Origin: a virus
Reading direction: 5' to 3' (one strand)
IMG/VR virus record: IMGVR_UViG_3300032046_002556
Span: 1-20,854 of that record
Length of the DNA: 20,854 nucleotides
Shown: positions 3,044-20,136 of the stretch, piece by piece
How the letters are laid out: each line of letters opens with the position of its first letter
Numbering within the stretch: the first letter of the stretch is position 1
Notes under the pieces: generated by a model
Told to the model about the DNA's origin: nothing
Database searches by the model: none
The model's input: only the letters and a program-made list of their open reading frames with translations
Program-made: the position numbers and the translations under genes

Positions 3044-3666
3044 AAAGTGTTAAATCCTTGATCTGCGTTAGAAATTCTTGTTAATCGTTGTGGATTGGCT
3101 TTTTTATCTTTGTTAATGAGCATTTGAAGTCGTTGATTGCCTAAATCGTTAAACCTATCGTGATTGCCGTAGTTTCTTTCAGTAAGCCAAAATCTTGCGG
3201 CAGTTAAGTATTTGATTACGATTAGATCAGGAATAGGGTCAACTTGGTTATCAGTGGTTAGTGTAGCCGGAATAGCATAATAAATTATTGTTAGTGCGGT
3301 GGAATTGGCATTTGTGTTTATCTGCCACAAATCAGTTGAAGTATTATAGTCAATATAATAAACATATTTACCACCGGAGTAGGTATTAAATAGTTCTTTA
3401 TTTATCGGAACGAATATGTTGTCGTCAGCGTCTCTAATATCTCTTGGCTTATGGGTAACATTAAAATCATCATTCAAATCAACTGAACCGGTAGCTGAAG
3501 TAGTGGGAGTATCAATTCTTTCTAACCACGAAAAGGGATAAGCATTTGCAATATCAAATTGTCTAACTTCGTTTATCGCATTATCACGAACCGTATTGGC
3601 AGTAGCACCATCAGTTTTTCCAAGTACATTTGCGACAGCATTCTTTTCTTGTAAATAACTAAGCAT
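3040..3666 (-). CDS. Head-tail adaptor (T7 gp11 / P22 gp4-like)
   Basis: A 208-residue protein whose layout fits podovirus adaptor/tubular proteins: a helical start with many Asn/Ala, PFSWLERIDTP at residues 44-54, a small beta domain (GSVDLNDDF...YVYYIDYN...LTIIYYAIPATL), then PIPDLIVIKYLTAARFWLTE and a final long helix. This protein family sits under the portal ring and connects it to the nozzle, which is the next gene. The start ATG at 3666 has a strong GGTGGAGG six bases upstream, and the 17-bp repeat ends 14 bases upstream. It is the first tail gene after the glycosylation operon. Family assigned from pattern, not alignment. Confidence 0.72.
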   Translation of the reverse strand: MLSYLQEKNAVANVLGKTDGATANTVRDNAINEVRQFDIANAYPFSWLERIDTPTTSATGSVDLNDDFNVTHKPRDIRDADDNIFVPINKELFNTYSGGKYVYYIDYNTSTDLWQINTNANSTALTIIYYAIPATLTTDNQVDPIPDLIVIKYLTAARFWLTERNYGNHDRFNDLGNQRLQMLINKDKKANPQRLTRISNADQGFNTL

Positions 3667-3680
3667 TATCGTCCTCCACC

Positions 3681-3697
3681 TATAAAAGACGATATTT
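3681..3697 (-). promoter_or_regulatory. 17-bp repeat, copy 1 (candidate late promoter)
   Basis: Read on the minus strand this is AAATATCGTCTTTTATA. It overlaps the stop codon of the glycosyltransferase gene upstream and lies 14 bases before the adaptor start. The same 17 bases occur at 13027-13043 and 15331-15347. The AT-rich end TTTTATA resembles a -10-type element. Promoter function is inference; an RNA-processing or translation site is also possible. Confidence 0.55.
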
Positions 3698-4478
3698 AGC
3701 TATTAGGATTTTTGCGATAAGTTTTGATTATATTCCCCTTTGATAAAGTATCCCCGAAAGAACTACCTTTACCCCATCTTTTTTCAAACACCTTTTTTCG
3801 TTGTTTCATATTGTCATCTTTGTTAATTTTACCTAATTCTCTCCATCCACCGTGAGCAAAATGATAATATATCGGAAGTGTACACGCTAACGAAACATAC
3901 CCTAATTTAGTCATTTGGTGATGTAAATCATCGTCATCAAATCCATAACCCTCCTTTCCAAATACGCCTTCGTCGTAAAATCTAATCTTCCTTAATAATT
4001 CACCTCTAAATAATCCGTATTGCGTCCACGCTTGAGGAAACCAATCACTTATCTGATACTCAGTTCCCATAGACAAATCGGCTTCCATAATATCAAACTC
4101 TCCATTGTGTCCTAATTTATCTAAGAGTTCCATACTATTTTGCCCGACACAATAAGCGTCTGGGTATATATCTAATATCTTTTGGTATTCTTTTATAGTC
4201 CCTTTGACATACAAAATATCCGAGTCCAACAAAAAGATATAATCGGCATCTATTTTATCTATTCCTACATTTCTTCCAACCGATGAACCCATATTTTTAG
4301 GTAAACTAATAAAGTGAAACTTTAGATCTTTAATGTTTCCGAAGTATTCTTTTGACCCATCAGTGCTTCCATTATCTACAAGCCAAACTTCATCTATTGG
4401 TTCTTTTAATAACCTTCTAATAGAATCTTTAGCAACATCTAATTCGTTCCAATTAATTGACAAACTCACAATTTTCAT
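3696..4478 (-). CDS. GT2-family (GT-A fold) glycosyltransferase
   Basis: A 260-residue protein of typical GT2 length. The N-terminal strand MKIVSLSINWNE is followed by VWLVDNGSTDGS (32-43), the usual nucleotide-binding turn, NMGSSVGRNVGI (62-73), and LLDSD (83-87), the DxD metal/nucleotide-sugar motif. The region around residues 180-190 (EGYGFDDDDL) matches the acidic acceptor-side motif of GT2 enzymes. It would transfer a sugar from an NDP-sugar made by the neighbouring genes. It is the last gene of the glycosylation operon, overlapping the epimerase gene by four bases; the donor and acceptor cannot be read from sequence. Confidence 0.88.
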   Translation of the reverse strand: MKIVSLSINWNELDVAKDSIRRLLKEPIDEVWLVDNGSTDGSKEYFGNIKDLKFHFISLPKNMGSSVGRNVGIDKIDADYIFLLDSDILYVKGTIKEYQKILDIYPDAYCVGQNSMELLDKLGHNGEFDIMEADLSMGTEYQISDWFPQAWTQYGLFRGELLRKIRFYDEGVFGKEGYGFDDDDLHHQMTKLGYVSLACTLPIYYHFAHGGWRELGKINKDDNMKQRKKVFEKRWGKGSSFGDTLSKGNIIKTYRKNPNS

Positions 4479-5329
4479 AACAACCCATTCTTTCTTAAAT
4501 CCTTAATTATCTTTTTAGTCGCACCTCTTTTATATAATTCTCCTTTACCGCGTTCGCTTTTTTCTCTTAAGGTAATAAAATCTTTACCAAGCGCGATACA
4601 TTCTTCCTGTAATCCGCCAGAATCAGATATACAACCCTTTGCACGGCTCAATAGACCGACAAAATCTCTATAAAGCATCGGTTTGTGTGTTTTAAAGTGT
4701 TTTTTTAGTTCTTGGCCGATCTTGTTAGGATGCGCGAATATAAATAGCTTGTCTTGGTCCATCTTTTTAATTGTTTTAATAATCTCCGGCATTCTTTCAA
4801 AGCTCTCGTTTCTATGAACCGTTACGATGTAAAAGTCTTCTTCGGTGCAGTTTGGTATAAATTCAAATAAAGTATCAATAGATGTTTGTCCGACATACTT
4901 TCCGCCACAATTTAATACCGCTTCCGGCGTTGAACAATATTTATAACTCGCTACTATATCAATCGCTTGACGATAAAACTCTTCTGGGAAAGGTTGAGTT
5001 AAATCAAATGTTCTAAGTCCGGCTTCTATATGTATGATGGGTATATTTGCTTCAAAACCATACACAGAAGCTCTGAAAGCTGTCCGGGTGTCTCCTTGTA
5101 CTATAATAGCCAGCCATTCATCTTTGGTTGATTTGATAAAGCGTTCTAATTCATTTTCCTCAACAAGATCGTCCCACTTAATAAGTCTTTGGTGTAAATC
5201 CCGCGATTGATTAACTTGTAGAAATTCAAACCCTTCATACTTAGTAAAAGGATATAGTTTAATCTCATCTGGTCGGGTTGCAAAGACGACTAAGATTTTA
5301 GATTGAATTTTAGACCGCATTTTCGGCAT
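4475..5329 (-). CDS. UDP-GlcNAc 2-epimerase-like protein, short form
   Basis: A 284-residue protein with the WecB/epimerase-2 motif series: ATRPDEIKLYPF near the N-terminus (canonical GTRPExIK), QGDT (79-82), IHIEAGLRT (99-107), PFPEEFYRQ (113-121; the usual Asn before Arg is Tyr), VTVHRNES (169-176), AHPN (199-202) and SDSGGLQEE (235-243). The expected reaction is UDP-GlcNAc to UDP-ManNAc, or the hydrolysing variant. The family is normally about 370 residues, so this is roughly 90 shorter; the segment where TGQH normally lies reads NQSRDLHQR. The start at 5329 has AGGGAG eight bases upstream and lies inside the end of the zinc-ribbon gene (40-base overlap). Confidence 0.8.
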   Translation of the reverse strand: MPKMRSKIQSKILVVFATRPDEIKLYPFTKYEGFEFLQVNQSRDLHQRLIKWDDLVEENELERFIKSTKDEWLAIIVQGDTRTAFRASVYGFEANIPIIHIEAGLRTFDLTQPFPEEFYRQAIDIVASYKYCSTPEAVLNCGGKYVGQTSIDTLFEFIPNCTEEDFYIVTVHRNESFERMPEIIKTIKKMDQDKLFIFAHPNKIGQELKKHFKTHKPMLYRDFVGLLSRAKGCISDSGGLQEECIALGKDFITLREKSERGKGELYKRGATKKIIKDLRKNGLL

Positions 5330-5502
5330 AAATGTAACTCCCTATGATTACCCTTCGCTTCATAATGCAAGTGCCACGCTTTTCTAATAAACTTTCCACA
5401 ACCAAAACAAGTGAAGGCACGATACTCTGTCTTTATAAGTTCAATTGGTGTGTATTCTACTGGAAATTTATCTAATTCGCGTACTATTTCTTGGTTATTC
5501 AT
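5290..5502 (-). CDS. Small zinc-ribbon protein in glycosylation operon
   Basis: A 70-residue protein with two CxxC knuckles: C32-FG-C35 and C59-RK-C62, separated by a basic, His-rich segment (KAWHLHYEAKGNHRELHL). This spacing suggests one zinc ion and a ribbon fold. The His residues recall HNH nucleases, but the catalytic His-Asn-His order is not present, so a nuclease call is not supported. It overlaps the SDR gene by eight bases and the epimerase gene by 40 bases, so it is embedded in the operon and cotranslated. Role unknown; a nucleic-acid or protein contact is a guess. Confidence 0.65.
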   Translation of the reverse strand: MNNQEIVRELDKFPVEYTPIELIKTEYRAFTCFGCGKFIRKAWHLHYEAKGNHRELHLCRKCGLKFNLKS

Positions 5503-6130
5503 TAATATTCCTCACATTCAGATATTTTTTCCAAGGTTGACCTTTATCTATTCGTCTTAGTGTTCTATAACCTCTTTTACGAATAATAATGTTGTCGCCT
5601 GACTGATATTTACCATTAAGAATTTCTTTTACAACTTTCGCAACTTGTTTAGTTGTTAAACGAGTTTTTATATCCTCATTAGGAAAATCTTTCTCACGCA
5701 TTTTGGTATTAACTCTTCCCGGACTGATACAATAAGCATTATATCCTTCCATCGCCAAACTTTGGACCAAACTAATAACTCCCGCTTTTGATGCGCAATA
5801 ACCCGAATGATTGGCTTTACCAAACTTACCAGCCACCGACCCAATAAATATTATTGTTTTTATATTAAATTCGGTGGCTATTTTAGCAATATTATAACTA
5901 CCTATTAAATTGGTCTCTATTTCATCAATCCATCTATTTGCGTCTGAATCTTTTATCATTTGGAGGTTGGATACACCAGCACAATTTATGACTACTTTTG
6001 GTTGATATTTTTGCACAGTTTCAATAACATTAATTAAGTTTCTAACATCGCACTCTTCTTTATCTATTAAATGGCAGGGTAAAAATTTGTTAATTCCTGT
6101 TGCTATATCACCACCACCAAATATAATCAT
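5495..6130 (-). CDS. Short-chain dehydrogenase/reductase (SDR)
   Basis: A 211-residue Rossmann protein. The N-terminal FGGGDIATGI is a shortened form of the SDR dinucleotide loop; NCAG (49-52) follows, then N74, S98, and YCASK (Y111, K115), giving the classical Asn-Ser-Tyr-Lys catalytic set, and SPGRVNT (136-142). All catalytic residues are present, so it is probably an active NAD(P)-dependent oxidoreductase acting on a nucleotide sugar or similar small molecule. At 211 residues it is about 30-40 shorter than classical SDRs. It overlaps the cupin-nucleotidyltransferase gene by four bases (ATGA) and the zinc-ribbon gene by eight, placing it in the sugar-nucleotide pathway. Confidence 0.85.
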   Translation of the reverse strand: MIIFGGGDIATGINKFLPCHLIDKEECDVRNLINVIETVQKYQPKVVINCAGVSNLQMIKDSDANRWIDEIETNLIGSYNIAKIATEFNIKTIIFIGSVAGKFGKANHSGYCASKAGVISLVQSLAMEGYNAYCISPGRVNTKMREKDFPNEDIKTRLTTKQVAKVVKEILNGKYQSGDNIIIRKRGYRTLRRIDKGQPWKKYLNVRNINE

Positions 6131-7146
6131 TGGTTTATCTCTCCTTTGCTAACTTTATCTTGAAATTCTTTTAACTCATCCGGTGTACCCAGTATTTGCT
6201 GTTTTTTTACATCAACCTCATAAGTATTTACTTTTAGCCCAGATGCTATAATCTCGTTAAAAACAGGAGTATTATAGAATTCACCGCTCACCCTAATATT
6301 TTTATCAATCATCTTATGAGCATTATCAAAATAGTATTTGGCTTGACGATAGAAATAAACTCCGCTAACTGCTAAATCAGAGATTACTTTTTTCTCGGCT
6401 ACTTCGGTTACTAAACCATCTTTTAACTTAACGTAACTGTGATGAGGATTATTAGAATTAAAAACAGTTACAGAACAATCCTTTGACTTATTCATAAAAT
6501 CATCTATATCAAAATTCAATATAAGTTGATCGCAATTGACTATTAAAAGTGGATCTTCTCTGCCAATTAAATGTTCTACTTCTAACATTGTTGAAACCGC
6601 TCCTTGTGTTTCGTGATCAAGCGGGACTATTTTAGCATTGACATTTAAATTGATATTATTACGAGAAATTAAAATCGTGTGATGATCAGCACTTGGAGAA
6701 AAGTTTTCTATCACTCGGTTGATCATTGGTTTGCCACATATAGAAATTAAAGGTTTAGGAATTAAATATCCGGCATCAATAAATCTTTGGCCTTTTCCGG
6801 CCATTGGAATAACTAAGTTGATAGGAAAACCTAAATATTTGTCTTTATGCGATTTATCTTTGATGGTTAAACAATATCCTTTTTCTAAACACTCATAATC
6901 AGTTGACATATATGGATAAATAATAGTAATATCACCGTCTTGGTATACTCTATCTCCTAAACGATGTTTTCCACCAGCAAATACTACATATTCAGTAGTA
7001 TTTCTATGATAGTGTCTATCTTCCTTATCGCCCTTATTATTCCACCTTAAACCCACCTCGTAATCTGTATGTTTAAGTGATGGTTCAAAATTTCCCAAGA
7101 ACCAACCTTTTTTAAATTGTGATATATTTTTTATTGACATAGACAA
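6127..7146 (-). CDS. Cupin-nucleotidyltransferase fusion (NDP-sugar synthesis)
   Basis: A 339-residue two-domain protein. Residues about 20-100 look like a cupin beta barrel with H45, H47 and E52 as probable metal ligands (RHYHRNTTEYVVF) and the turn GDITIIYP. Residues 110-330 are a sugar-1-phosphate nucleotidyltransferase: VIPMAGKGQRFIDAG (112-126), IPKPLI (129-134), QGAV (181-184) and NCDQ (204-207, the metal Asp). Such enzymes make NDP-sugar and pyrophosphate from NTP and sugar-1-phosphate. The cupin may be an isomerase/epimerase or a binding domain. A TTG start at 7146 has GGAGG six bases upstream; ATG at 7140 is the alternative, with a 12-base gap. Both lie within the end of the FkbM gene. 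Confidence 0.8.
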   Translation of the reverse strand: MSMSIKNISQFKKGWFLGNFEPSLKHTDYEVGLRWNNKGDKEDRHYHRNTTEYVVFAGGKHRLGDRVYQDGDITIIYPYMSTDYECLEKGYCLTIKDKSHKDKYLGFPINLVIPMAGKGQRFIDAGYLIPKPLISICGKPMINRVIENFSPSADHHTILISRNNINLNVNAKIVPLDHETQGAVSTMLEVEHLIGREDPLLIVNCDQLILNFDIDDFMNKSKDCSVTVFNSNNPHHSYVKLKDGLVTEVAEKKVISDLAVSGVYFYRQAKYYFDNAHKMIDKNIRVSGEFYNTPVFNEIIASGLKVNTYEVDVKKQQILGTPDELKEFQDKVSKGEINQ

Positions 7147-7768
7147 TATCTGCCTCCAATGGCCAAGGTTGATCGTAGTGAACTTCTTGAAAATTATTCT
7201 TTTTCATAAATTCTTTTAATTGTCTATAATTAGTTGGTGTATATTTTTTATTAGGATAGTATAACGAACCAGTGGCTACTTCTGTCGCAACTATCTTAAT
7301 ATCTTTTAATAATTCACCGAATCCTTTAAATGTTTGAAGTTCTGACCCCTGAACATCTACCCAAGCTAAATCAATCGTTTTTATATTATTTTCTTTTGCC
7401 CAAGTATCTATTCTTTTAGCCGGCGCTACTGTCTTTTCCAAGCCATTAAATAAATCAACACCAACTACTCTTTCTGTTGGCTCAAATATTGACGATGCAC
7501 CTTTATTATCGGTTTGTTTAACATTATAAAATGAAGTTTCGCCATTATAATCTAAAGCAGCAAAATTAAATAGTTTAACATATTTAGGTTTAATTTTTAC
7601 GCACTCTTTGTATGACTCATTGTTAGCTTCAATCGCATATATTTGAGCTTTAGGATAAACGGAATGGAATTCAATAGATTGTTCTAAATCTCGCGTGCCG
7701 ATATCCACGATTGTTTTAATATCCAATTTATATGGTTTAATCGAGTGGATACAAGATTCGATGAGCAT
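7112..7768 (-). CDS. FkbM-family SAM-dependent methyltransferase
   Basis: A 218-residue class I methyltransferase of the FkbM type. Motif I is VDIGTRD (21-27), the acidic end of strand 2 is IEAN (46-49), and the family hallmark DVQGSEL (138-144, often DVEG in relatives) is present, followed by KGFGELLKDIKIVATEV. FkbM enzymes commonly O-methylate sugars of surface polysaccharides or glycans, which fits the neighbouring sugar-nucleotide and glycosyltransferase genes. The ATG at 7768 lies four bases downstream of AGAGG and within the end of the upstream GT2 gene (32-base overlap). It overlaps the cupin-nucleotidyltransferase gene by 35 bases. Confidence 0.85.
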   Translation of the reverse strand: MLIESCIHSIKPYKLDIKTIVDIGTRDLEQSIEFHSVYPKAQIYAIEANNESYKECVKIKPKYVKLFNFAALDYNGETSFYNVKQTDNKGASSIFEPTERVVGVDLFNGLEKTVAPAKRIDTWAKENNIKTIDLAWVDVQGSELQTFKGFGELLKDIKIVATEVATGSLYYPNKKYTPTNYRQLKEFMKKNNFQEVHYDQPWPLEADIVYVNKKYITI

Positions 7769-8303
7769 ATTTCCTCTTTATGTATTCTTTATTTTTCTCT
7801 GATAATTGTTTTGGTTTTGACCAATGTATTATCTTTCCGGGAAGACATTCAATTTTATATCCTGCGTCTTCTATCTGAAATCCTAAATCTATGTCTTGAT
7901 AACCTGGATCTTCATAAAATTCATCCATAAATCCTATCTTTTTAATCGCTTCTTTTGAAACACATAATGCTGAAGGATAATCTGGGTTCTTTGTAGAGTC
8001 AGTCAGGTATTGTCCATTTTTAGCTCCCCAGTGTTCAAACTTATCGCTAAATTCCCCATATTTGAAACTACCTACTTCTGCCAACTTATCTGCCCAACCT
8101 TTTGTCACTTGGTGATCGTCGTGTAACAAAATTAAATAATCGCCTTTGGCTTTTCTAATACCCTTGTTTATCTTTGTGTTGTATCCCTTATCGCCTTCTA
8201 TAATTATCAGTTCATAATCTTTAGTATGTTTTTTGATTGAATAGATTAAGCCATCTAAATTCTTATTTCTATTACGGATTGGAATAATTATTGATATTCT
8301 CAT
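7737..8303 (-). CDS. Short GT2-type glycosyltransferase
   Basis: A 188-residue GT-A-fold protein, at the small end for GT2. MRISIIIPIRNRNKNL is the standard N-terminal strand and turn, ELIIIEGD replaces the usual VDDGS, NKGIRKAKGDYLILLHDDH (46-64) gives the helix leading into the DxD-like HDDH, and EDPGYQDIDLGFQIEDAGY is the acceptor-side acidic motif. It lacks any C-terminal extension. There is no good ribosome site; the ATG overlaps the upstream stop (ATGA), so translation probably depends on coupling to the methyltransferase before it. Substrates unknown. Confidence 0.82.
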   Translation of the reverse strand: MRISIIIPIRNRNKNLDGLIYSIKKHTKDYELIIIEGDKGYNTKINKGIRKAKGDYLILLHDDHQVTKGWADKLAEVGSFKYGEFSDKFEHWGAKNGQYLTDSTKNPDYPSALCVSKEAIKKIGFMDEFYEDPGYQDIDLGFQIEDAGYKIECLPGKIIHWSKPKQLSEKNKEYIKRKYAHRILYPLD

Positions 8304-8836
8304 ATTTTTACAACTGCGATAGTATCAACTGTTTTATAAATTTTAAGATTTTGGTCTTTAATGGCATTGGCAACTCCTAAAAAATTAGAATCGTGAAATA
8401 AACAATATTCTTTGACTTTAGGCAACCAGTTCAAAATATCTAATTTAACAGCATCATAGTGATGGTTAGCATCAATAAATAATAAGGATATTTTGTCTAT
8501 TTGCTTTATTATATTTTCATCATCACTCGAACACATAATTAAACTAATATTAGGAAATGGTAATATATTTGCCTCAGTGATTGTTTTATCTGGAGCAAGT
8601 TTTTCTTCTCCTTGATATTTAAAAGATTCAAATTTATCTATCCCAATGATTTTATTTTTAAGACCCTTGAATTGACAAAATTCTGCCATCATTGATGTTG
8701 TCCTACCTTCCCAAATACCTATCTCAACTATTGGATATGAAGTTTTCAACTGATCAATTAATTCTAAAATAATCCGGTGTTCATTCGGAGTCGTATATCC
8801 AGGATTTATCCATTTTTGGATTAATTTTTCAATCAT
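8300..8836 (-). CDS. Class I methyltransferase, Methyltransf_24-like
   Basis: A 178-residue protein. EIGIWEGRTT (38-47) is motif I, IGIDKFE (64-70) is the acidic strand, and FIDANHHYDAVKLDILNW (120-137) followed by CLFHDS (145-150) is the 'ID..H.Y...D...W......HD' pattern typical of Methyltransf_24 proteins. These are found in polysaccharide and glycan clusters, where many are presumed sugar or peptide O-methyltransferases. AGGGAGG lies four bases before the ATG. It overlaps the previous methyltransferase by eight bases and the next GT2 gene by four, so it belongs to the same coupled operon. Confidence 0.82.
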   Translation of the reverse strand: MIEKLIQKWINPGYTTPNEHRIILELIDQLKTSYPIVEIGIWEGRTTSMMAEFCQFKGLKNKIIGIDKFESFKYQGEEKLAPDKTITEANILPFPNISLIMCSSDDENIIKQIDKISLLFIDANHHYDAVKLDILNWLPKVKEYCLFHDSNFLGVANAIKDQNLKIYKTVDTIAVVKI

Positions 8837-9488
8837 TTTTCCTCCCTACGATATAATGACTATAATTTCCTATATTCCCTAAATCTTCAATCTCAAATCC
8901 GGCATCAGATAATAATGTTACCAAGTCGAATTGTGTATAATGATAAGTATGTTCATCTTTCCATTTGCCCTTATAATCCGGTATGTCTTTCCAACTCTTC
9001 AAATCGTTCCACAACCCCTTTTTACCAACGTTCATTGATGTTGTTTCACCGTGTCTTTCTTTCATTACAGTTGAGCAAAAGAAGTGTCCACCATCGTTTA
9101 ACATTTCATAAACTCTCTTAATGGCCGGTAGGGGATTGGAGTTAAGGTGTTCGATTGTTTCAGTCATTATTATCAAATCAAATTTATCTTGTAGCTTTTC
9201 TCCTTCAATATTTAATAAAATAAATTTAATATCATTATCTTTTAGCATTTTAATAGAAGTATATTTATCAGTCATATCAGATGCTGTAATATTATCGCCT
9301 CGCTTTTTAAGCATTAAAGCCAATATTCCATAAGCGCAACCAATATCTAAACTCTTTTTGCTTTTAGGAAGTAAATTAAAGACATCCTCATAATATTGTT
9401 TAAATCCGCTAACATAGTGTTCAAATTGAGGATTCTGTTTGTACTTTGAATTTTCTATCAATACACGTTCAATCATCATTCTTTCCAT
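8829..9488 (-). CDS. Class I SAM-dependent methyltransferase (Methyltransf_11/23-like)
   Basis: A 219-residue protein with a clear SAM pocket: SLDIGCAYGILALML (46-60, motif I), ITASDM (67-72, acidic strand), and IIMTETIEHLNSNPLPA (106-122), the 'ETIEHL' post-motif typical of Methyltransf_23 enzymes; GGHFFCST follows. The start ATG at 9488 has TAGGAG six bases upstream; it overlaps the GT4 gene by 20 bases. It is the first of three methyltransferases in the operon, which differ in family and so probably act on different positions or acceptors. Sugar methylation is inferred from context, not from specific residues. Confidence 0.83.
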   Translation of the reverse strand: MERMMIERVLIENSKYKQNPQFEHYVSGFKQYYEDVFNLLPKSKKSLDIGCAYGILALMLKKRGDNITASDMTDKYTSIKMLKDNDIKFILLNIEGEKLQDKFDLIIMTETIEHLNSNPLPAIKRVYEMLNDGGHFFCSTVMKERHGETTSMNVGKKGLWNDLKSWKDIPDYKGKWKDEHTYHYTQFDLVTLLSDAGFEIEDLGNIGNYSHYIVGRKND

Positions 9489-10533
9489 TGAATACTCCTA
9501 TCCATTGTTTAGCCAATTTTTGGTAGTTAAATATGTCTTTTACACCTTTTTGCATTACTTTTCTAAATTGTTCTTGTCCTTTCGTGTCTTTTAGAATTTG
9601 TATTAGGGCGTCTGCCCAATTATTTAATATTTCCTCACTATTCTGACCATTAGAAATCTTTATTCCATATTTGACCGTCTCATTTAGCGCCGCTTTTGGT
9701 ATAACTACTGGTATAGCTCCGCCTATTTGTGCTTTCATGGCTGTAATACAACTAATTTCATTAAATCCAATACAGGGATATGCCCATATACCAGCGCCCA
9801 GCATTTCTTTGGCCACTTCTTTGTGAGATATACGACCTAAGTGAGTAATACTTTCCTGATCCATCAAGTGTTCTATTTGTTTTTTGAATTCCTGAAAATC
9901 TTTTAGGGGAAGCAACTTTTCAATTGTTTGCCAACCATAGAAAATACGAAGTTTTGCTTGAGGAACTGCAAGTTTTATCTTTGGCCATAGTGTAAGTAAT
10001 TGTACTAATCCTCTATTGTAGAGTGAGCCATAAACCATTGTGTAAGGATCGCGGATTACTTTCTGATTAAAAAGTGAATAGTCAACCGCATTTCTTGTTT
10101 CAATAATTTTATCTCTAAATTCCGGCGCACAACATTGGAGATAATAATCTTGATGCCATTTAGAAAGTGCGAATATTCCATCAAAAGCCACCAAGTAAGG
10201 TATTACTTCCAATGGATTGATGGTGTCGTGTAGCCATAGGTATTTTCTGGCTTTTACTTTATCTAAATGGTGTTTTAGAAGTAATTGGGGGCTACGACAG
10301 ATAATTAGGATATCTGTCTCTTTAACATCAAAATCATCATAGTTTTTGTAAGTCACATTATTATAAGTTCCTTCATCTTCTAAACAACGACTCCAAACCG
10401 TAACTTTATAAGTTTTAGCGAGTTCTTTGGCCATCCCGATAAACATTTCTTCCGATCCACCAATACCAGACTCTATTGACTTAGGTGACCATTGTTCGTG
10501 ACTTGGACCGACATAAATATCGCAGCTTTTCAT
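9469..10533 (-). CDS. GT4-like (GT-B fold) glycosyltransferase
   Basis: A 354-residue GT-B protein. The N-terminal domain has SIESGIGGSEEMFIGMAKEL (19-38), the Gly-rich acceptor loop common in GT4 enzymes, and LWLHDTINP (99-107). The C-terminal domain begins near residue 167 with VYGSLYNRGLVQLLTLWPKI (167-186), has LRIFYGW, THLGRISHKEVAKEM (230-244), and the donor-binding region around E259 (FNEISCITAMKAQIGGAIPV). The SLYNRGL-LL-WP pattern occurs in a group of bacterial and viral GT4 proteins. It overlaps the upstream GT gene by four bases with GGAG seven bases before the ATG. Likely a retaining transferase; donor unknown. Confidence 0.83.
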   Translation of the reverse strand: MKSCDIYVGPSHEQWSPKSIESGIGGSEEMFIGMAKELAKTYKVTVWSRCLEDEGTYNNVTYKNYDDFDVKETDILIICRSPQLLLKHHLDKVKARKYLWLHDTINPLEVIPYLVAFDGIFALSKWHQDYYLQCCAPEFRDKIIETRNAVDYSLFNQKVIRDPYTMVYGSLYNRGLVQLLTLWPKIKLAVPQAKLRIFYGWQTIEKLLPLKDFQEFKKQIEHLMDQESITHLGRISHKEVAKEMLGAGIWAYPCIGFNEISCITAMKAQIGGAIPVVIPKAALNETVKYGIKISNGQNSEEILNNWADALIQILKDTKGQEQFRKVMQKGVKDIFNYQKLAKQWIGVFNGKNDD

Positions 10534-11219
10534 ATAAATTCTCCGTCTATCTTATCTCTTTTAACTATCTTATGAGTCATCTGATACCGACTATTTGCCA
10601 CCGGACTAACTAACTGTTCAATATAGCAATGCTTAGCTATCTTTTTACTTACTTTTATTTCAAATCCTGCTTTGCGGACTTGTAAATAGAAGTAAGTATC
10701 TTCACCGGCTGAAAGTTTATCTCCGCCTACTTGTTCTTGTGAGGCGAAAAGACCAATTCTGCCCTGATTATCTCGTCTGATTCTATGTTGTGTACAAATA
10801 AACCAAGGTTGACTAATCTTTTCAAATACCTCTCGTTTGACTAAAACCGCTCCAATTCCTGCCCAAGCAACACTTTTATCTTTGTCGGTAACTACCGTTC
10901 CATAAGATTTGTTAATTCCTAACGATTTCATCGGATAGTCCATCACCGCAACATCGGTTTTCAGCTTTATCAGTTCTTTTAATCCACCTTTAGGCAAAAT
11001 TATATCCTCATCCAATAAAAGAATATGCGTCCAATCTTTTAATTTAAGAGCTGTTTCAATTAAGAAGTTTCTACATAAAGGAAGCGCCATATCGTGGGTT
11101 CTGATAATGATAGGGATTTGATTGTTATTACTAAGTTCCTTATCTAAAGCATCTTGAACTTCAGTTAGTATAATTCCTCTGGTTGGCATTACTGTGCAGA
11201 TCTTTACATTACTTGACAT
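10530..11219 (-). CDS. GT-A-fold glycosyltransferase, first gene of glycosylation operon
   Basis: A 229-residue protein. ICTVMPTRG (7-15) is the opening strand, THILLLDEDI (64-73) holds the DxD motif (D70, D72), and GAVLVKREVFE and SAGEDTYFYLQVRKAGFEI supply the acceptor-side acidic pair; the second half includes an extended insertion rich in Gln and Arg. The pattern fits GT2/GT-A-like transferases, though it is more divergent than the other two. AGAAGGGA lies about six bases before the ATG. It follows the 174-base capsid-operon intergenic region and heads an eleven-gene run with no gaps. Confidence 0.75.
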   Translation of the reverse strand: MSSNVKICTVMPTRGIILTEVQDALDKELSNNNQIPIIIRTHDMALPLCRNFLIETALKLKDWTHILLLDEDIILPKGGLKELIKLKTDVAVMDYPMKSLGINKSYGTVVTDKDKSVAWAGIGAVLVKREVFEKISQPWFICTQHRIRRDNQGRIGLFASQEQVGGDKLSAGEDTYFYLQVRKAGFEIKVSKKIAKHCYIEQLVSPVANSRYQMTHKIVKRDKIDGEFI

Positions 11220-11275
11220 AATTTTATCCCTTCTATATTGTTACCATATTTACAATTCTTACAACTTATTTTCAT
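11204..11275 (-). CDS. Possible 23-residue CxxC leader peptide of the glycosylation operon
   Basis: ATG at 11275 is preceded by AGGAG four bases upstream and opens 23 codons ending in TAA at 11204-11206, overlapping the glycosyltransferase start by 16 bases. The peptide contains SCKNCKYGNN and a further Cys (GIKLC), which recalls the first half of small CxxC zinc proteins of phages. It could be a real miniprotein, a translational leader that delivers ribosomes to the glycosyltransferase start, or the remnant of a larger Cys-rich gene. The good ribosome site is the main support. Confidence 0.4.
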   Translation of the reverse strand: MKISCKNCKYGNNIEGIKLCQVM

Positions 11276-11292
11276 ATAACTCCTACAATTAA

Positions 11293-11340
11293 AGCCCGTG
11301 GAGTCCGGATAGGAACCACGAGCTTGAATTATTCCGGACT
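11293..11340 (-). promoter_or_regulatory. Interleaved double stem: RNA pseudoknot or two-state switch
   Basis: On the minus strand the order is AGTCCGGA (11340-11333), loop, AAGCTCGTGG (11325-11316), loop, TCCGGACT (11309-11302), CCACGGGCTT (11301-11292). The first and third segments pair perfectly over eight bases; the second and fourth pair over ten with one U-G wobble. Because the stems interleave they form either an H-type pseudoknot or two mutually exclusive hairpins. There is no spacer between the two 3' strands, so a full pseudoknot would be strained. The second hairpin is followed by a weak U-run (CUUUAAUU), so terminator or attenuator function is possible. Confidence 0.6.
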
Positions 11341-11344
11341 TTTT

Positions 11345-11392
11345 GTGTAATCGCTCCAGCCCCCCAAGAAGAGGAGCTGTTTGCCATTACAC
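11345..11392 (-). terminator. Hairpin at 3' end of capsid mRNA
   Basis: One base after the capsid stop codon, GTGTAAT pairs perfectly with ATTACAC across 48 bases. Inside, CAGCTCC pairs with GGGGCTG through one U-G wobble that would be an A-C mismatch on the other strand, so the fold suits RNA copied from the minus-strand genes. There is no U-tract after it (AAAA follows), so it is more likely an mRNA-stabilising 3' barrier than an intrinsic terminator by itself. Confidence 0.5.
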
Positions 11393-11393
11393 A

Positions 11394-12269
11394 TTATGCT
11401 GTGGTGTATTTCATCAAAACATAGTGATCGGAGCGAGCAATGGTTAAACCATAAATCTCATAACCAACCAGTTTTGTTCCAATATAATCAACCGAGTATT
11501 CTGTCTTTGTCGTAACGTCTTTCTGAAGTGCGATAGCGAAAGCGTCTTTGTGAAACAACATTCCATACGCCGACAATGCGGTCGGAGTAGCCACATTGTT
11601 ACTCATCAACACCTTAGCGCCGAATAGTTGTCCAACCTCACCCGTTGCAATAGCAGTTGGGGTTTTCCCACCCGCGTCATAACGAATAAAATCGGTAATA
11701 TTAAGCAAGTCCTCGTAACCATACGGGTCAACAACCAAATAACGATCTTCTCTTGGAACATTCTTCTGATTCAATATACGACTGGCAGTTATAATATCAG
11801 CTTCCATAACACTGCCTGCTGTATGTGTTCCAACTGAGAACGCATTAGTTGCACCAGTAAGAGCAAGTATATCTGTATCTACTGCATCAGCCAAAGCATA
11901 ACCGATTTTTCCAGTAAAGTTGGCGAATAAATCGTATTTACTTTGAACCGAAACAATATCTTCAATTAACTTAGCAACATACTTATATTTTGTGATGTTG
12001 ATAGTAACCTGAGTATCGGTTGCTGAATCATATGAAATTGCCGAACCGGCTGTTTTATCTCTGGCTGATTCATTGCCAAGTTTAGGCATATTGACAGTAT
12101 CGCCATAAGCCAAACCTTCTGGGCTAACGTGCATAATTTTATCAACCATAACAAGTGCTTTTTGACGAGCTTTGAGTATTTCCTTACTCCACAGTTCCGG
12201 AATAAATACTGCGGCAGTAGTTACATCAACCGAATTACCAGTAGATGTCTTCTGGTCTAAAAGAGCCAT
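11394..12269 (-). CDS. Major capsid protein (HK97 fold, podovirus type)
   Basis: A 291-residue protein that fits phage major capsid proteins: an N-arm (residues 1-20), VFIPELWSKEILKARQKALV (22-41, the common N-terminal helix after 'F.PE.WS'), YGDTVNMPKLG (55-65), TKYKYVAKLIEDIVSVQSKY (93-112), GYALADAVDTDILAL (122-136, spine helix), ASRILNQKNVPREDRYLVVD and a C-terminal beta region with the acidic/aromatic end. It directly follows the scaffold gene with a nine-base gap and AAGAGG before the ATG. It would form the procapsid shell with the scaffold and portal. Length is a little short for T7-like shells but normal for small HK97-fold capsids. Confidence 0.85.
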   Translation of the reverse strand: MALLDQKTSTGNSVDVTTAAVFIPELWSKEILKARQKALVMVDKIMHVSPEGLAYGDTVNMPKLGNESARDKTAGSAISYDSATDTQVTINITKYKYVAKLIEDIVSVQSKYDLFANFTGKIGYALADAVDTDILALTGATNAFSVGTHTAGSVMEADIITASRILNQKNVPREDRYLVVDPYGYEDLLNITDFIRYDAGGKTPTAIATGEVGQLFGAKVLMSNNVATPTALSAYGMLFHKDAFAIALQKDVTTKTEYSVDYIGTKLVGYEIYGLTIARSDHYVLMKYTTA

Positions 12270-12278
12270 TTTAACCTC

Positions 12279-12959
12279 TTATTTTGAATAACTATCTAAT
12301 ATTTTGTTCCAATTAGCAGCTTTTTCTTCATCTGATAAAGAACTGATATCAATCTTTTCTTCACCAGTGGAGACCTTGCCACCAGATGGAGTTGTAACAC
12401 CTAACCGACCGGACCGAGAAGCAAGTAATTCTTTTTTTACTTTATTTTCATTAACCTCAATTTGAGCTTTAATCTCGTCAGCCGCATCACTAATCCTCAT
12501 ATTGTTAGCTTGGGCGTAAGAAAACACCGTTCTGGAAAGTTTGTCATTACCTTCAAGGTCAGGATGCTTTTCAAGAGTTACTAAAATATCTTTTTGCATC
12601 TCCTTGTTGGCTTCCGACTTATCTTTCTCATATTGTTGAATTTGTTGTTTTCTAAGTACGCTGTCTGCGATCTGATCTGCGGTTAAATACTCACCTTGAG
12701 GTTCGTCCATAGGGGTTACAGGTTCGGGAGCATTAAATTTCTCCCAATAGTCCGCTTTCTGTTCAGCATCCTTGAGCCGTTTTGACAACTCGTGAATACG
12801 CTGTTCAGCGCGGGGTTTCTTCACTTCTTCCACTGGCTGATCTGACACGTCAGCGGGCGCTGTTTCAGTTTCCGAAGGTGTTTCCGTTTCGGGTGCCGAT
12901 TCCGGGGTAGTTTCTTCTACCGGTGTCTCCTCAGAGACGGTGGCTTCTTCTTTTTCCAT
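12279..12959 (-). CDS. Capsid scaffolding protein
   Basis: A 226-residue, very acidic protein. Residues 1-48 are a Glu/Thr/Pro/Ser-rich low-complexity tail, residues 52-75 are a charged helix likely to form a coiled coil (RIHELSKRLKDAEQKADYWE), and the rest is helical with a Lys/Ser/Gly C-terminus (SGRLGVTTPSGGKVSTGEEK), followed by a short helix (SSLSDEEKAANWNKILDSYS) that may bind coat protein. Acidic N-terminus, helical body, small C-terminal basic/helix module and location just upstream of the capsid gene are the standard features of podovirus scaffolds. AAAGG lies five bases before the ATG. Confidence 0.83.
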   Translation of the reverse strand: MEKEEATVSEETPVEETTPESAPETETPSETETAPADVSDQPVEEVKKPRAEQRIHELSKRLKDAEQKADYWEKFNAPEPVTPMDEPQGEYLTADQIADSVLRKQQIQQYEKDKSEANKEMQKDILVTLEKHPDLEGNDKLSRTVFSYAQANNMRISDAADEIKAQIEVNENKVKKELLASRSGRLGVTTPSGGKVSTGEEKIDISSLSDEEKAANWNKILDSYSK

Positions 12960-12961
12960 TT

Positions 12962-13024
12962 ATACCTTTCTTCGAGTTTATACTCTTCGACGAGTTTGAG
13001 AGAGGGTAATTATTCCTACTCTCA
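12962..13024 (-). repeat. Scaffold mRNA leader: 18-base tandem repeat and hairpin
   Basis: The untranslated leader holds two adjacent 18-base units (12962-12979 and 12980-12997) matching at 14 of 18 positions; the gene-proximal unit carries the AAAGG ribosome site. Upstream, TGAGAG and CTCTCA (13019-13024 and 12997-13002) can form a small hairpin. This could be a translational control element or a past duplication; no function is shown. Confidence 0.4.
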
Positions 13025-13026
13025 CT

Positions 13027-13043
13027 TATAAAAGACGATATTT
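13027..13043 (-). promoter_or_regulatory. 17-bp repeat, copy 2 (candidate late promoter)
   Basis: Minus-strand AAATATCGTCTTTTATA, identical to the other two copies, overlapping the TAA stop of the 89-residue gene and 67 bases before the scaffold start. It would serve the scaffold-capsid pair, the most heavily expressed genes of a phage. Confidence 0.55.
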
Positions 13044-13311
13044 ATTCTTGTGGGCCGAATTTACCTTTAATTTTGCTATTTATATTATATGAACCAAAAG
13101 GTCTTTTGGTTCTACGGTCAATGCCAATAGTTCCACCTATTTGGCGTGGTCTTTTCCCAATACTTCCACCAATAGAAGCTGATACATTCTGGTCTTTATA
13201 AGTACCAATTCTTACTGGGGTACTCAAAGCCGCTTTTTTAATTCTCTGTGCCTGTTGTAATGTCATTTTAGGCATTGCTTTTACTTTGTTGTAAATGTCT
13301 CTAAATCCCAT
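13042..13311 (-). CDS. Small basic protein with IGG(S/T)IG repeats, 89 aa
   Basis: An 89-residue basic protein. The N-terminus (MGFRDIYNKVKAMPKMTLQQ) is helical; the C-terminal half contains two short units, IGGSIGKRPRQ and IGGTIGIDRRTKRPFG, that read as alternating beta strands and basic turns, then SYNINSKIKGKFG. I do not recognise a family. Its place between portal and scaffold suggests a minor head protein or an assembly factor, and the basic repeats could contact DNA or a capsid partner; this is inference. It starts ten bases after the 112-residue gene ends. Confidence 0.6.
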   Translation of the reverse strand: MGFRDIYNKVKAMPKMTLQQAQRIKKAALSTPVRIGTYKDQNVSASIGGSIGKRPRQIGGTIGIDRRTKRPFGSYNINSKIKGKFGPQE

Positions 13312-13321
13312 TTCGTCTCCT

Positions 13322-13660
13322 TTACTTTATATTTTTAATTTGTCGCCACTTTTCTTCTAACTCTTCTAACCTACCAGCTAATAATTCTACTTCCCAGACA
13401 AACTTCATTCGTTCGTTGGCTCTTGTTAGACGGTCGTCTCGTATTTCTTTTTTAAGTCCCGGCCATACCGCCAACATACCCGTCTCTTCAACAGCTTTCT
13501 TTGTTTGTTCTGATAGATGTTTCCAACCTTTAGTGCTTATAAGTTCATTGTATTGGCGGCATTCCTTGAGTTTGGTCGCCAGCACCTTGCGGGATAGGGC
13601 CTGCTGGTCCGGTTGGTTGTCCTGATACGTTTCCAGATATCTGGTTATTTTGTCCGGCAT
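13322..13660 (-). CDS. Helical protein overprinted on the portal C-terminus, 112 aa
   Basis: A 112-residue, charged, mostly helical protein (LTRANERMKFVWEVELLAGR, LEELEEKWRQIKNIK at the end suggest a coiled coil). Its ATG at 13660 has AAGGA seven bases upstream, so the start is well supported, yet the last 116 bases of the portal gene lie in another frame over its first 38 codons. The next in-frame Met is at residue 62, so a short form cannot easily replace it. Family unknown; the position suggests a head-assembly factor or a portal-associated protein. Confidence 0.65.
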   Translation of the reverse strand: MPDKITRYLETYQDNQPDQQALSRKVLATKLKECRQYNELISTKGWKHLSEQTKKAVEETGMLAVWPGLKKEIRDDRLTRANERMKFVWEVELLAGRLEELEEKWRQIKNIK

Positions 13661-15329
13661 TTTGTTGTCCTTGTTGGTTATTATTTACAAAAAACTTTTC
13701 TGTGTCTTTTTCGCCCGATCTATTTATTAACTCTTTGACAAATTCTTCTTCATTTAAAAATCCAACTCGGGCTGTTCCGGTAGCCGTCGGTATGGTGTGT
13801 TGAAAATATGGCTGAACGATTTGAAATAAGTTAAGAAACTTTGTGAATTCTGCTTGTTGGTCGGTTTGTAGTGTTGAATCGGATTCTGGTATGACATCAT
13901 ATTCTCCAGCAATATCTGATGCTCCCACTTTAGCGAATTGCTCTCCTTGTGGCCCAACAATTCTAATAACCTTCTCTTTAGTAATAAATTGCTGATATAA
14001 TTGATAAACTAATTCCCCAAGTCGCTTAAGTCCTGTTTCTTCCAATATCTTAACTTTGTGAGCAAATCTGGCGTTAGCTTGAGCGGTCTTGATTTCCACT
14101 TCGGCTGCTGTTTGGCCGGGAGTTTGGAGTCCTTGAACATAATCAGTAACACCTAAAGCTCTTTGGATGGTCTCAGTCGCCAATGTTTGTTCTTGAACTG
14201 CCGTACCGGTAACATTTGGCATATTCATAATATTAGCGTCATCTATATCGGTAATATGAATAATTCCATTATCTATAAATTGGAGTTCGTCATCATCAAC
14301 AGCATTCTTGGCTTTCCACATCGGAAAGAGAATACGACTAACATTAGTAATTCTTTGGTTTTGAATTGTATTTAAAGCGTGGAGTTGTTTCTCTACCGGT
14401 TCTATCTCGCCTTTGCCATAAAACTCTTGTGAAACAATACTATCAACTAATTTAATAAAAGGTTTCTTTCCGTGCCAGTAGGGATTATCACCATTATAAA
14501 GTACCTCCGACTCATCACCAACAATGGTAAGGTGGTCATCTTCCCACATTTCCCATATTTTACATTTATCTATCGTTTTATCGTCTTCGGTTTGAATAGA
14601 CATACCAGTAGCCGAGCGCCGTTGATCGTTGTATTGGTCTTCGGAATTTGTTTTATTACTTCTTAATCTTTTAAGAGCTGAAACATTATAAAGAGCTTTA
14701 CCTAATTCTTTAGCGGAAGCGTTTTCTGCTTCAAGCTCATCTATGTTGGCAATATATTGATAACCAACCCAAGAACAAGAATCAATATCATCACCGGCCG
14801 GGTCAAAAAAGAAATCATAGATATTAACATTCTTAGTTCTCGGATCGTCATAGTCAATTACTGGTATCTCTTGAGTCATATAAGTACTGTCTTCGTCTAC
14901 CATTGGTTCACCATTCTCGTCTAAAACATAGGATTTGACCATTCTTGGCGGTTTGGTAAGCCAATCCATCTTGATAATTCCCGTACCATAGACGAGTGCA
15001 TCTTTAATCCAAGCTATTACTTTAGAATAAGCACCACTCTTATCAAACCAATATCTGAAAAGGTCAGACATTATCTTGGCCTGAATGTCATCGGAGTTTT
15101 CCCTTGGTTTATATGAGATAACTGGTGTTTTGGCCATTAAACGAGTAACAATTGTTTCAATAAAAGACCAAAGAATTGGATTAAATACTTTTGATTGAAC
15201 ATTAGGATCAAACTTCTTTAATTTAGAATGATAAATAAAATCAAAGTCATTAAACTTATCAAACTTCGTTCGTTGATTTTCTAATGCTGTTTTAAAACGA
15301 GATTGTACTGTTGCTAATTTATCCATCAT
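13545..15329 (-). CDS. Portal protein (podovirus type)
   Basis: A 594-residue protein with the sequence of a podovirus-type portal: an N-terminal helical wing, DALVYGTGIIKMDW (110-123), NVNIYDFFFDPAGDD (167-181), YWHGKKPFIKLVDSIV (284-299), YGKGEIEPVEKQLHALNTIQ (304-323), and a long helical crown region further on. Portals form a dodecameric ring at one vertex through which DNA is packaged. The last 47 residues are Gln/Asn/Gly/Pro low complexity and share 116 bases with the next gene. No ribosome site precedes the ATGATG at 15329/15326; the 17-bp repeat ends one base before it. Confidence 0.86.
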   Translation of the reverse strand: MMDKLATVQSRFKTALENQRTKFDKFNDFDFIYHSKLKKFDPNVQSKVFNPILWSFIETIVTRLMAKTPVISYKPRENSDDIQAKIMSDLFRYWFDKSGAYSKVIAWIKDALVYGTGIIKMDWLTKPPRMVKSYVLDENGEPMVDEDSTYMTQEIPVIDYDDPRTKNVNIYDFFFDPAGDDIDSCSWVGYQYIANIDELEAENASAKELGKALYNVSALKRLRSNKTNSEDQYNDQRRSATGMSIQTEDDKTIDKCKIWEMWEDDHLTIVGDESEVLYNGDNPYWHGKKPFIKLVDSIVSQEFYGKGEIEPVEKQLHALNTIQNQRITNVSRILFPMWKAKNAVDDDELQFIDNGIIHITDIDDANIMNMPNVTGTAVQEQTLATETIQRALGVTDYVQGLQTPGQTAAEVEIKTAQANARFAHKVKILEETGLKRLGELVYQLYQQFITKEKVIRIVGPQGEQFAKVGASDIAGEYDVIPESDSTLQTDQQAEFTKFLNLFQIVQPYFQHTIPTATGTARVGFLNEEEFVKELINRSGEKDTEKFFVNNNQQGQQNAGQNNQISGNVSGQPTGPAGPIPQGAGDQTQGMPPIQ

Positions 15330-15330
15330 C

Positions 15331-15347
15331 TATAAAAGACGATATTT
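15331..15347 (-). promoter_or_regulatory. 17-bp repeat, copy 3 (candidate late promoter)
   Basis: Minus-strand AAATATCGTCTTTTATA, three bases after the stop of the sigma-like gene and one base before the portal ATG. If TTTTATA is a -10 element, the transcript would begin at or within the start codon, so the portal mRNA made here would be leaderless or nearly so. Confidence 0.52.
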
Positions 15348-15350
15348 TAT

Positions 15351-15701
15351 TTAGAGTTTATCCATTTCAGCAAAAAAAACGCATTCGTTTAATAAATCAC
15401 GAGGAATTTCAGACCAAATGCTTGGTTTTATCTGTATTTTTTGCTTTCTTTGTAAATCATAGAGACAATTTATAAACATTTTGTTGATATATTTCATAAA
15501 TCGGTAATCAAAATAGATAATATCGTCTGGTATGCGTGCTTTCCATAACTTATAAGATAGTTCTTGGAACAAATCGTCATAATCATAACCTTTTATCAAA
15601 TTTAAGTTGTTTTTACAGTGGAATTCTATCTGACGTCTCATTAAATAGAACAAATCATCAAATGTCAGCTCAGATATTTTGATGTTTGGTTTGTAAAGCA
15701 T
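15351..15701 (-). CDS. Sigma-factor region-2-like protein, 116 aa
   Basis: A small helical protein whose middle resembles sigma-70 region 2: YDYDDLFQELSYKLWKA (40-56) corresponds to the 'DLxQEgxlgLxkA' helix that binds the RNA polymerase clamp, and FDYRFMKYINKMFINCLYDL (64-83) followed by QRKQK corresponds to the 'F.fstYa..wir..i....r' -10 recognition helix. There is no room for region 4, so it would recognise only a -10-like element, as T4 gp55 does. It sits between the terminase and portal genes, with AGGAAAGG before the ATG. Alternative: an unrelated helical packaging factor. Confidence 0.5.
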   Translation of the reverse strand: MLYKPNIKISELTFDDLFYLMRRQIEFHCKNNLNLIKGYDYDDLFQELSYKLWKARIPDDIIYFDYRFMKYINKMFINCLYDLQRKQKIQIKPSIWSEIPRDLLNECVFFAEMDKL

Positions 15702-15709
15702 TGCCTTTC

Positions 15710-16399
15710 CTATTCAAGCATATCTATATCAAACTTCTTCCTTATTGGTCTTCTACCAAATCCAGTTACCGGATCGCCTCCTGTATAACCTATAATTTTT
15801 TGATGTTTAATTATTGTCGGTACACATATTTGCTGTAATTGCCAAGCGATGGCAGCACTAAATATAAGATCATCGTGCGCTCCTACTTCCGCCTGCGCTT
15901 TCCAACTTGATGAGGTCTGAACTACTATAAAAGAAAACAACTCGTTAATTGTTTCCTCGTCATAAATCTTGATAAGTTGTTTATCTATCGCTTCTTTAAG
16001 GTCTGATAGCATCTTTGGTCTGGTTGATGTATTCGTGTCCCAGCCATATCTTACTGCTTCAGGCGCATCCACTCGTCCCGATACCGGCATCTTAAATAGC
16101 TCAAACTTATTAAGCCGGTTAAGTGTCGCAAGTCGTTCCATCTCAAAAAGCCCTCCGTTTTGCCTTTCCATTGCTACAACCGGTTTGATGTGAGTAGTGT
16201 CATATATCTTTTCTAATACCGGTAAGAGTTGGTTAGTCATCTCAGTAGCAAGGACTTTAGAATGATAGGCAAGCGGAATGTCTAATTTTGTTTTAGATAG
16301 AAATTGAGCGGCGCAATAGTCAATACCGCCAGCCGCAGGATCAACGCCTACTACAATAAACTCGTCAGGTTCTATTTTGCGAAATTGACGAAAGCTCAT
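15710..16399 (-). CDS. Large terminase, nuclease domain as a separate protein
   Basis: A 229-residue protein that is the C-terminal half of a large terminase. VVGVDPAAGGIDYCAAQ (16-32) supplies the first catalytic Asp (D20), AMERQ (76-80) supplies E78, and GAHDDLIFSAAIAW (173-186) supplies the last Asp pair (D176/D177) of the RNase H-like headful nuclease. The 15 residues before the first motif (MSFRQFRKIEPDEFI) read as the end of the interdomain linker. All metal ligands are intact, so it is probably active with the ATPase made from 17384-18190. It overlaps the methyltransferase-like gene by four bases. Confidence 0.87.
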   Translation of the reverse strand: MSFRQFRKIEPDEFIVVGVDPAAGGIDYCAAQFLSKTKLDIPLAYHSKVLATEMTNQLLPVLEKIYDTTHIKPVVAMERQNGGLFEMERLATLNRLNKFELFKMPVSGRVDAPEAVRYGWDTNTSTRPKMLSDLKEAIDKQLIKIYDEETINELFSFIVVQTSSSWKAQAEVGAHDDLIFSAAIAWQLQQICVPTIIKHQKIIGYTGGDPVTGFGRRPIRKKFDIDMLE

Positions 16400-16959
16400 A
16401 ATGGTAACCTCTCTTTTGGTTCAAGTTCTACAAAAGTTAATTGTTTCCCAATATTAAATCCCCAAGTGAACCAAGCTGTCGCAAACCAACTACCGCTACC
16501 TTTACCACTCGGCGTTTCAAAGTTAATTCTTTTATCAAATAAAATTACTTCTAAACCATATTCTCTAAATAGTTTTTGTCTTTTCTTCCCTTCAAATGTT
16601 GTGAGTGGTAATAAGAAAGCAAAAGGAACATTAAACGAATATGCTCTCTCTAAAAATTCTTGTTTGAGAGAAAATGGTGGATTGGTAATTATACAATCAA
16701 ATTCTGGCAACTTATCAAATAAAAAATTGTATCCAAACAAAATATCTGTTGGATATACATCAAATCCCAATCTTTTTAATCCGTTAGATAGATTTCCTTT
16801 ACCAGCAGCGCATTCCCATATTTTCCAATTTTTGTTAAGATATGGAATCAATGGTTTTAGTGCTATTGGCGGAGTTTGAAAATCATCAACACTTCCTTGT
16901 CTTAATGGTGGTTTGTTATATTCCATAGGTGGAGGCAATATTGCTGTGCACTCCACCAC
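16396..16959 (-). CDS. DNA adenine-methyltransferase-like protein inside terminase locus
   Basis: A 187-residue protein with DFQTPPIALKPLIPYL (26-41), WECAAGKGNLSNGL (48-61, SAM motif I) and FDCIITNPPFS (87-97, the NPPF amino-methyltransferase motif). It resembles phage N6-adenine methyltransferase-like proteins; no target-recognition domain is evident, so target DNA is unknown. Its frame starts with GTG at 16959 without a ribosome site; GTG at 16956, TTG at about 16938 or ATG at 16926 are alternatives. It ends four bases inside the terminase nuclease gene, so the two are coupled. With the next two genes it forms the insert that separates the terminase domains. Confidence 0.78.
   Translation of the reverse strand: MVECTAILPPPMEYNKPPLRQGSVDDFQTPPIALKPLIPYLNKNWKIWECAAGKGNLSNGLKRLGFDVYPTDILFGYNFLFDKLPEFDCIITNPPFSLKQEFLERAYSFNVPFAFLLPLTTFEGKKRQKLFREYGLEVILFDKRINFETPSGKGSGSWFATAWFTWGFNIGKQLTFVELEPKERLPL
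16928..16957 (-). promoter_or_regulatory. Hairpin over the methyltransferase translation start
   Basis: GGTGGAG pairs with CTCCACC over seven bases around a 16-base loop that contains the palindrome GCAATATTGC. The hairpin covers the GTG start region and the only purine-rich stretch that could act as a ribosome site for a downstream start, so it could restrict translation of the methyltransferase-like protein. Confidence 0.4.
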
Positions 16960-16966
16960 CTATAAA

Positions 16967-17206: not shown

Positions 17207-17223
17207 TCTTCCTCCTTAATAAA

Positions 17224-20123: not shown

Positions 20124-20136
20124 TTCCAAACTCCTT

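Follow-up and report, generated by a model that had tools for sequence, protein, structure and literature searches.

The Element and the Genes around It

The window analysed here is the virus record IMGVR_UViG_3300032046_002556 at its full length of 20,854 bases, probably a fragment, from a phage that we label G000. All clear genes here are encoded on the minus strand. Their order is terminase small subunit, the large subunit of terminase in split form, a sigma-like protein of 116 amino acids (aa), portal, two genes of 112 and 89 aa, scaffold, major capsid protein, the glycosylation operon (about 7.5 kb), adaptor and, in tail position, a 549-aa gene, with more genes beyond it; scaffold and tail are assigned from position, the scaffold also from composition. 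Our subject is a 17-bp element, AAATATCGTCTTTTATA, which is repeated in this series directly ahead of the portal, the scaffold and the adaptor (Table 1). We consider it probable, with considerable room for doubt, that the repeat is a late promoter consisting of a -10 element only, with the core CRTCTTT, and that it is read by a small phage sigma factor together with the host core RNA polymerase.

An earlier note on this DNA had described three exact copies of the 17-mer at gene junctions, heading the portal, scaffold/capsid and adaptor/tail blocks, and that description was confirmed. The copies lie at 3681-3697, 13027-13043 and 15331-15347 on the minus strand, which is the coding strand for all three, and in a window with a non-coding share of about 4% all are intergenic, except that two of them overlap the upstream TAA by two bases. 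Copy 1 begins 3 nucleotides (nt) past the stop codon of the sigma-like gene and ends 1 nt ahead of the portal ATG. The note had called the chance of such a repeat negligible, and simulation agreed: across 200 order-3 Markov sequences no 17-mer occurred more than twice, and three matches with three mismatches tolerated arose in one of 100 dinucleotide shuffles. A search with up to three mismatches, which the note had proposed as a check, returned nothing in the record besides the three copies, and so no random copies in coding frames; the window also holds no other repeat of at least 16 bases. Since the record is probably a fragment, the count of three does not fix the number of copies in the full genome. 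The note had further remarked that the glycosylation operon has no copy, which holds for the window phage and fails for a relative, G003, where the operon is preceded by one.

Relatives and Their Own Elements

Searches of the IMG/VR viral contigs with the capsid and portal proteins provided three relatives, G001 (27.8 kb), G002 (10 kb) and G003 (36 kb), and the capsid proteins of the three are 65-75% identical. The 17-mer is present in none of them within three mismatches. Each relative carries an element of its own at the matching junctions that were read. G002 has CCGTCTTTCTC twice, ahead of portal and scaffold, and no exact copies elsewhere. G003 has six sites, five with TAGCATCTTTAG and one with TAGCATCTTTTG (one mismatch), which precede the adaptor, a 233-aa gene, the portal, the scaffold, the glycosylation operon and the gene that follows it. 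Among the coding-strand 12-mers of G003 TAGCATCTTTAG has the most copies, and any 12-mer reached four copies in only one of 200 Markov sequences. In G001, with a contig that breaks off within the capsid gene, a single site, TTTCGTCTTTCTTG, lies ahead of the adaptor. The sigma-like gene adjoins a copy of the element in all three contigs that cover this region. It is followed by the portal in G000 and G002 and by the adaptor in G003, where the portal comes further on; in both gene orders every block opens with an element, and one element always stands directly behind the sigma-like gene. The modules are thus reordered in G003, yet the elements stay at their heads, which fits a promoter and argues against an ancestral relic left in one place.

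Wider searches stayed within this group. Among 2.9 million viral contigs the exact 17-mer gave 16 single matches, a count at about chance level; none was repeated in its own stretch, and none of the 16 stretches had a detectable homolog of the sigma-like protein. No capsid relative was found in genome contigs, and a final scan with an adaptor alignment returned only the relatives already known. The cultured cyanophages A-4L and TR020 and the metagenomic CHP58 were considered and set aside, as their capsid or portal similarity is distant only and they have no sigma-like gene. A small gene of MW202803 annotated as a DNA-directed RNA polymerase, between terminase and portal, looked like a match and proved to be unrelated. 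At the G001 adaptor (L024 19690-19712) the start codon is apparently ATA (AAGGAG-ATAAA-ATA) or an upstream TTG beside the element, which may reflect an AUA start or a sequence error.

A Conserved Core and Its Distance to Gene Starts

Alignment of 12 sites from the four phages, anchored on TCTTT, revealed a core that is invariant at all 12, CRTCTTT (CGTCTTT or CATCTTT). The four bases that follow are TATA in the window phage and CTCT, CTCA, AGCA, AGGG, AGTA, TGTA or CTTG elsewhere. Upstream of the core no set of conserved columns appeared in the three G000 sites or in the six G003 sites and hence no -35 partner, as the earlier note had stated. In a pooled test of the four phages, 3,904 comparable degenerate heptamers were ranked by their enrichment in the 90 nt before minus-strand starts, and CRTCTTT came second, with 11 of its 26 occurrences there and Shine-Dalgarno-like words as its neighbours in the ranking; this test was made after the sites and the core had been seen.

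The distance between core and start codon provides evidence on where the RNA begins. Where TCTTT lies 5-6 nt from the ATG (the portals of G000 and G002 and the adaptor of G003), none of the three genes has a Shine-Dalgarno sequence. Where it lies at least 18 nt from the start, all eight have one (seven sites of the alignment and the G003 9662 site, with AGGAG ahead of the real start); the G001 site was left out of this count because of its ambiguous start codon. A Shine-Dalgarno sequence only where there is room for it is most simply read as RNA that starts a few bases past TCTTT. If the A of the leaderless ATG is taken as the reference point, RTCTTT covers positions -12 to -7 in G002 and G003 and -11 to -6 in G000. 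This spacing puts RTCTTT, and not TATA, at the -10 position, the site of contact between a sigma region 2 and the promoter. The earlier note had pointed to the TTTTATA end of the 17-mer as fitting a promoter; as a -10 box this end did not survive the comparison with the relatives, in which it varies.

The scaffold leaders point the same way. In all three phages hairpins begin right after the element there, and since the first sits at the very 5′ end of the predicted scaffold mRNA, it again places the transcript start just after the element. Hairpins at the 5′ terminus are known to stabilise mRNAs of abundant virion proteins. The second hairpin, with a GYCGAA loop, has 100% of its cells paired, against 17-50% in sliding controls; the minimum-energy fold of the whole leader in the window pairs this stretch otherwise, so the hairpin rests on comparison and not on the fold. 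The leader hairpins (window 12982-13024, minus strand; L026 3405-3473; L027 17421-17501) are followed by ATAAACTCGRAAAGG or a close variant and match no family in Rfam. Intrinsic terminators behind the capsid gene in G002 and G003 imply that the blocks need promoters of their own.

The Sigma-like Protein and the Proposed Mechanism

The sigma-like proteins are 116-130 aa long, that of the window being the 116-aa one, with homologs 35-38% identical. They share the sequence GLDxDDIFQELSIELW, which resembles sigma region 2, and they end after this region-2-like part without a region 4. Pfam Sigma70_r2 matches two of the three proteins, the best at E=0.0045 (the G003 homolog; 17.2 bits against a curated cut-off of 24), and a sigma-factor profile of PHROG gives E=0.0096. 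An AlphaFold model built from three sequences reached a predicted local distance difference test (pLDDT) score of 76, with the C-terminal residues 109-116 poorly predicted (pLDDT <50). On structural re-alignment the 19 best chains were all sigma factors, with Z from 8.1 to 5.6, and the first unrelated chain followed at 5.1. Direct searches of the viral contigs and of 50,697 phage records returned no homologs other than those of the relatives already found by capsid and portal, and no sequence relation to gp55 of T4 was found in these searches. Profiles, fold and gene order taken together suggest that the 116-aa protein is likely a sigma factor made of region 2 only.

In the mechanism that we propose, the sigma-like protein would join the host core RNA polymerase with no need of a -35 element, recognise CRTCTTT as a -10-only promoter and open it. 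Transcription would start about 6-7 nt downstream of RTCTTT, and such a start would give near-leaderless mRNAs for some structural genes (the portal in G000 and G002, the adaptor in G003). The scaffold-capsid mRNA would begin instead with a stable structured leader, and the virion blocks would be transcribed separately.

Weighing the Explanations

Several points weigh against this proposal. By sequence the sigma assignment is weak, as every Pfam match falls under the curated cut-off; a profile search for the sigma-like protein gave no match in the PDB, and Foldseek with the model reached a best E of only 1.4. Helical bundles can also reach Z values close to 8, and such a value is not proof by itself. 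The protein is linked to the element by adjacency and shared occurrence only, and the seven-base core is short and was defined after the fact. The group is known from four contigs, each of unproven completeness. A start of transcription at the element, its timing as late and the reading of the element by this protein are all deduced from sequence. The earlier note had already proposed a late promoter read by a region-2-only sigma; the relatives give good support to a late promoter at the module heads, and profiles, fold and gene order uphold the sigma-like neighbour, while the TATA detail was given up and recognition is something that we infer.

The most familiar system of this kind is that of T4, whose late promoters have a short -10 element about one turn from the start and no -35, and whose small sigma gp55 is related mainly to sigma-70 region 2 (PMC2988020). 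The likeness lies in a -10-type element alone and a candidate phage sigma of the region-2 type. In T4 a C-terminal epitope binds the sliding clamp, and gp33 acts as a co-activator beside gp55. T4 late RNA starts about one helical turn downstream of an 8-bp TATA box, whereas the box here is CRTCTTT and the predicted starts are near-leaderless. Because of that box we do not count the element among the T4-type late promoters; we class it as a probable phage late promoter that has a sigma of its own. Late promoters of the AR9/phiKZ type are likewise short, phage-specific and near the start (PMC5312081); their readers are multisubunit polymerases of the phage, of which none is among the genes annotated here. 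In sequence the element resembles promoters of extracytoplasmic function (ECF) sigmas, such as Streptomyces sigma-E, for which CGTCTT is typical at -10 (PMC6767563). The host polymerase with a host sigma, aided by a phage activator or antiterminator, might read the element while the sigma-like protein does something else. ECF sigmas, however, contain region 4 and depend on an AAC motif at -35. Neither is seen here, and no -35 is conserved among the three sites of the window or the six of G003. Matches of the sigma-70 kind are also no more frequent in the window than expected by chance (69 against 70), and we regard a host sigma as unlikely.

The 17 bp of the window phage invite comparison with promoters of single-subunit RNA polymerases, and such a T7-like enzyme might be encoded in an unseen part of the genome. 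A run of 17 bp that ends in TATA and then purines has the length and the end of a T7 promoter (-17 to -1); the copies are exactly identical, stand ahead of structural genes and carry purine-rich GG/AG/GA after the TATA, the element diverges between relatives as such promoters diverge between phages, and the head genes are of podovirus type. The terminal TATA is absent in the relatives, however, which keep only CRTCTTT, and no single-subunit polymerase gene was found: PF00940 has no match in the 94.7 kb of the four phages (whose contigs may be incomplete), with a T7 control at E=1e-110, nor in the genomes of the distant relatives A-4L and CHP58. We hold a T7-like promoter to be unlikely.

Action at the RNA level, as a processing site or by pairing with Shine-Dalgarno sequences to control translation, would make use of UCUUU, which can pair with such purine-rich sequences. 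A strong hairpin does exactly this at the adaptor of the window phage (-13.1 kcal/mol, z -3.3), where RNA read through from the glycosylation operon can form it and RNA begun at the element cannot. The hairpin is clear at this one site only, however, three sites have no Shine-Dalgarno sequence to pair with, and exact identity over 17 bp is more than such pairing needs; we find an RNA-level element quite improbable. As part of a promoter the adaptor hairpin is a possible timing device. In T4 gene e read-through RNA hides the ribosome site and late RNA leaves it free (PMC3014915), and the same hiding is predicted for the window adaptor. A general rule of this kind was considered and dropped, since the effect is clear only at the G000 adaptor and weak or absent elsewhere. 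Least convincing of all is a boundary sequence retained for module exchange by recombination. The element does cap modules whose order differs in G003, but its full sequence is not common to the relatives, as recombination between them would require, and it always lies on the coding strand in a fixed relation to the starts; this account strikes us as very improbable.

Returning to the promoter with its own sigma, we would give about even weight for and against its fullest form: that a region-2-only phage sigma, among the smallest known, reads a non-TATA CRTCTTT box with fast-diverging flanks and fires near-leaderless virion mRNAs in uncultivated short-tailed phages. If true, it would be a second and simpler case beside T4 of late transcription by sigma region 2 alone, without a TATA box and in a small genome. 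It would also offer a minimal system for what region 2 recognises without region 4, and a route to late promoters in an uncultivated group from sequence only.

Other Features of the Region

Table 1. Positions of the element copies, genes and hairpins in the window
Feature	Position	Strand	Remark
Sigma region-2-like protein, 116 aa, without region 4; candidate late sigma factor	15351-15701	-	
Element copy 1 (AAATATCGTCTTTTATA)	15331-15347	-	Between sigma-like gene and portal; no Shine-Dalgarno
Portal (SU10/P22 type), first gene behind copy 1	13545-15329	-	
89-aa gene, last of portal block	13042-13311	-	
Element copy 2	13027-13043	-	Overlaps TAA (13042-13044) of 89-aa gene; scaffold 67 nt downstream
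Hairpin at predicted 5′ end of scaffold mRNA leader	12997-13024	-	
Second leader hairpin, GYCGAA loop	12982-12995	-	Compensatory changes on both sides in three of its four pairs (three phages compared)
Probable scaffold, first gene behind copy 2	12279-12959	-	By position and composition; no family match
Major capsid protein	11394-12269	-	
Strong hairpin directly behind capsid gene, without U-run	11344-11393	-	
Glycosyltransferase, methyltransferase and nucleotidyltransferase operon, without element in window phage	3696-11219	-	
Element copy 3	3681-3697	-	Overlaps TAA (3696-3698) of last glycosylation gene; adaptor gene 14 nt downstream; leader with GGTGGAGG
12-bp hairpin, element paired with adaptor Shine-Dalgarno region	3667-3694	-	Formable by read-through RNA only
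Head-tail adaptor (SU10 type), first gene behind copy 3	3040-3666	-	

The glycosylation operon between the capsid and tail genes encodes glycosyltransferases, an FkbM-type methyltransferase, an epimerase and a nucleotidyltransferase, and parts of it are present in all three relatives with identity up to 80%. Its leader has a hairpin that ends in GGGCTTTAATTGT / AGAGCTTTAATTGT (window 11220-11310; G003 15592-15680), and only in G003 is there a copy of the element at this place. No Rfam family matched in the window. The terminase large subunit (15710-18190, minus strand) is apparently split into an ATPase part (17384-18190) and a nuclease-like part (15710-16399), separated by a 55-aa gene, a 79-aa helix-turn-helix-like gene and a DNA methyltransferase; G003 has it as one 725-aa frame. 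In G001 a 451-aa protein (L024 3835-5190, plus strand), encoded on the strand opposite to the virion genes, matches the PHROG family phrog_850, which bears the name RNA-binding protein, at E=5e-40. An RNA ligase-like protein (PF09414, E=1e-20) is encoded in the window at 19485-20129 on the minus strand.

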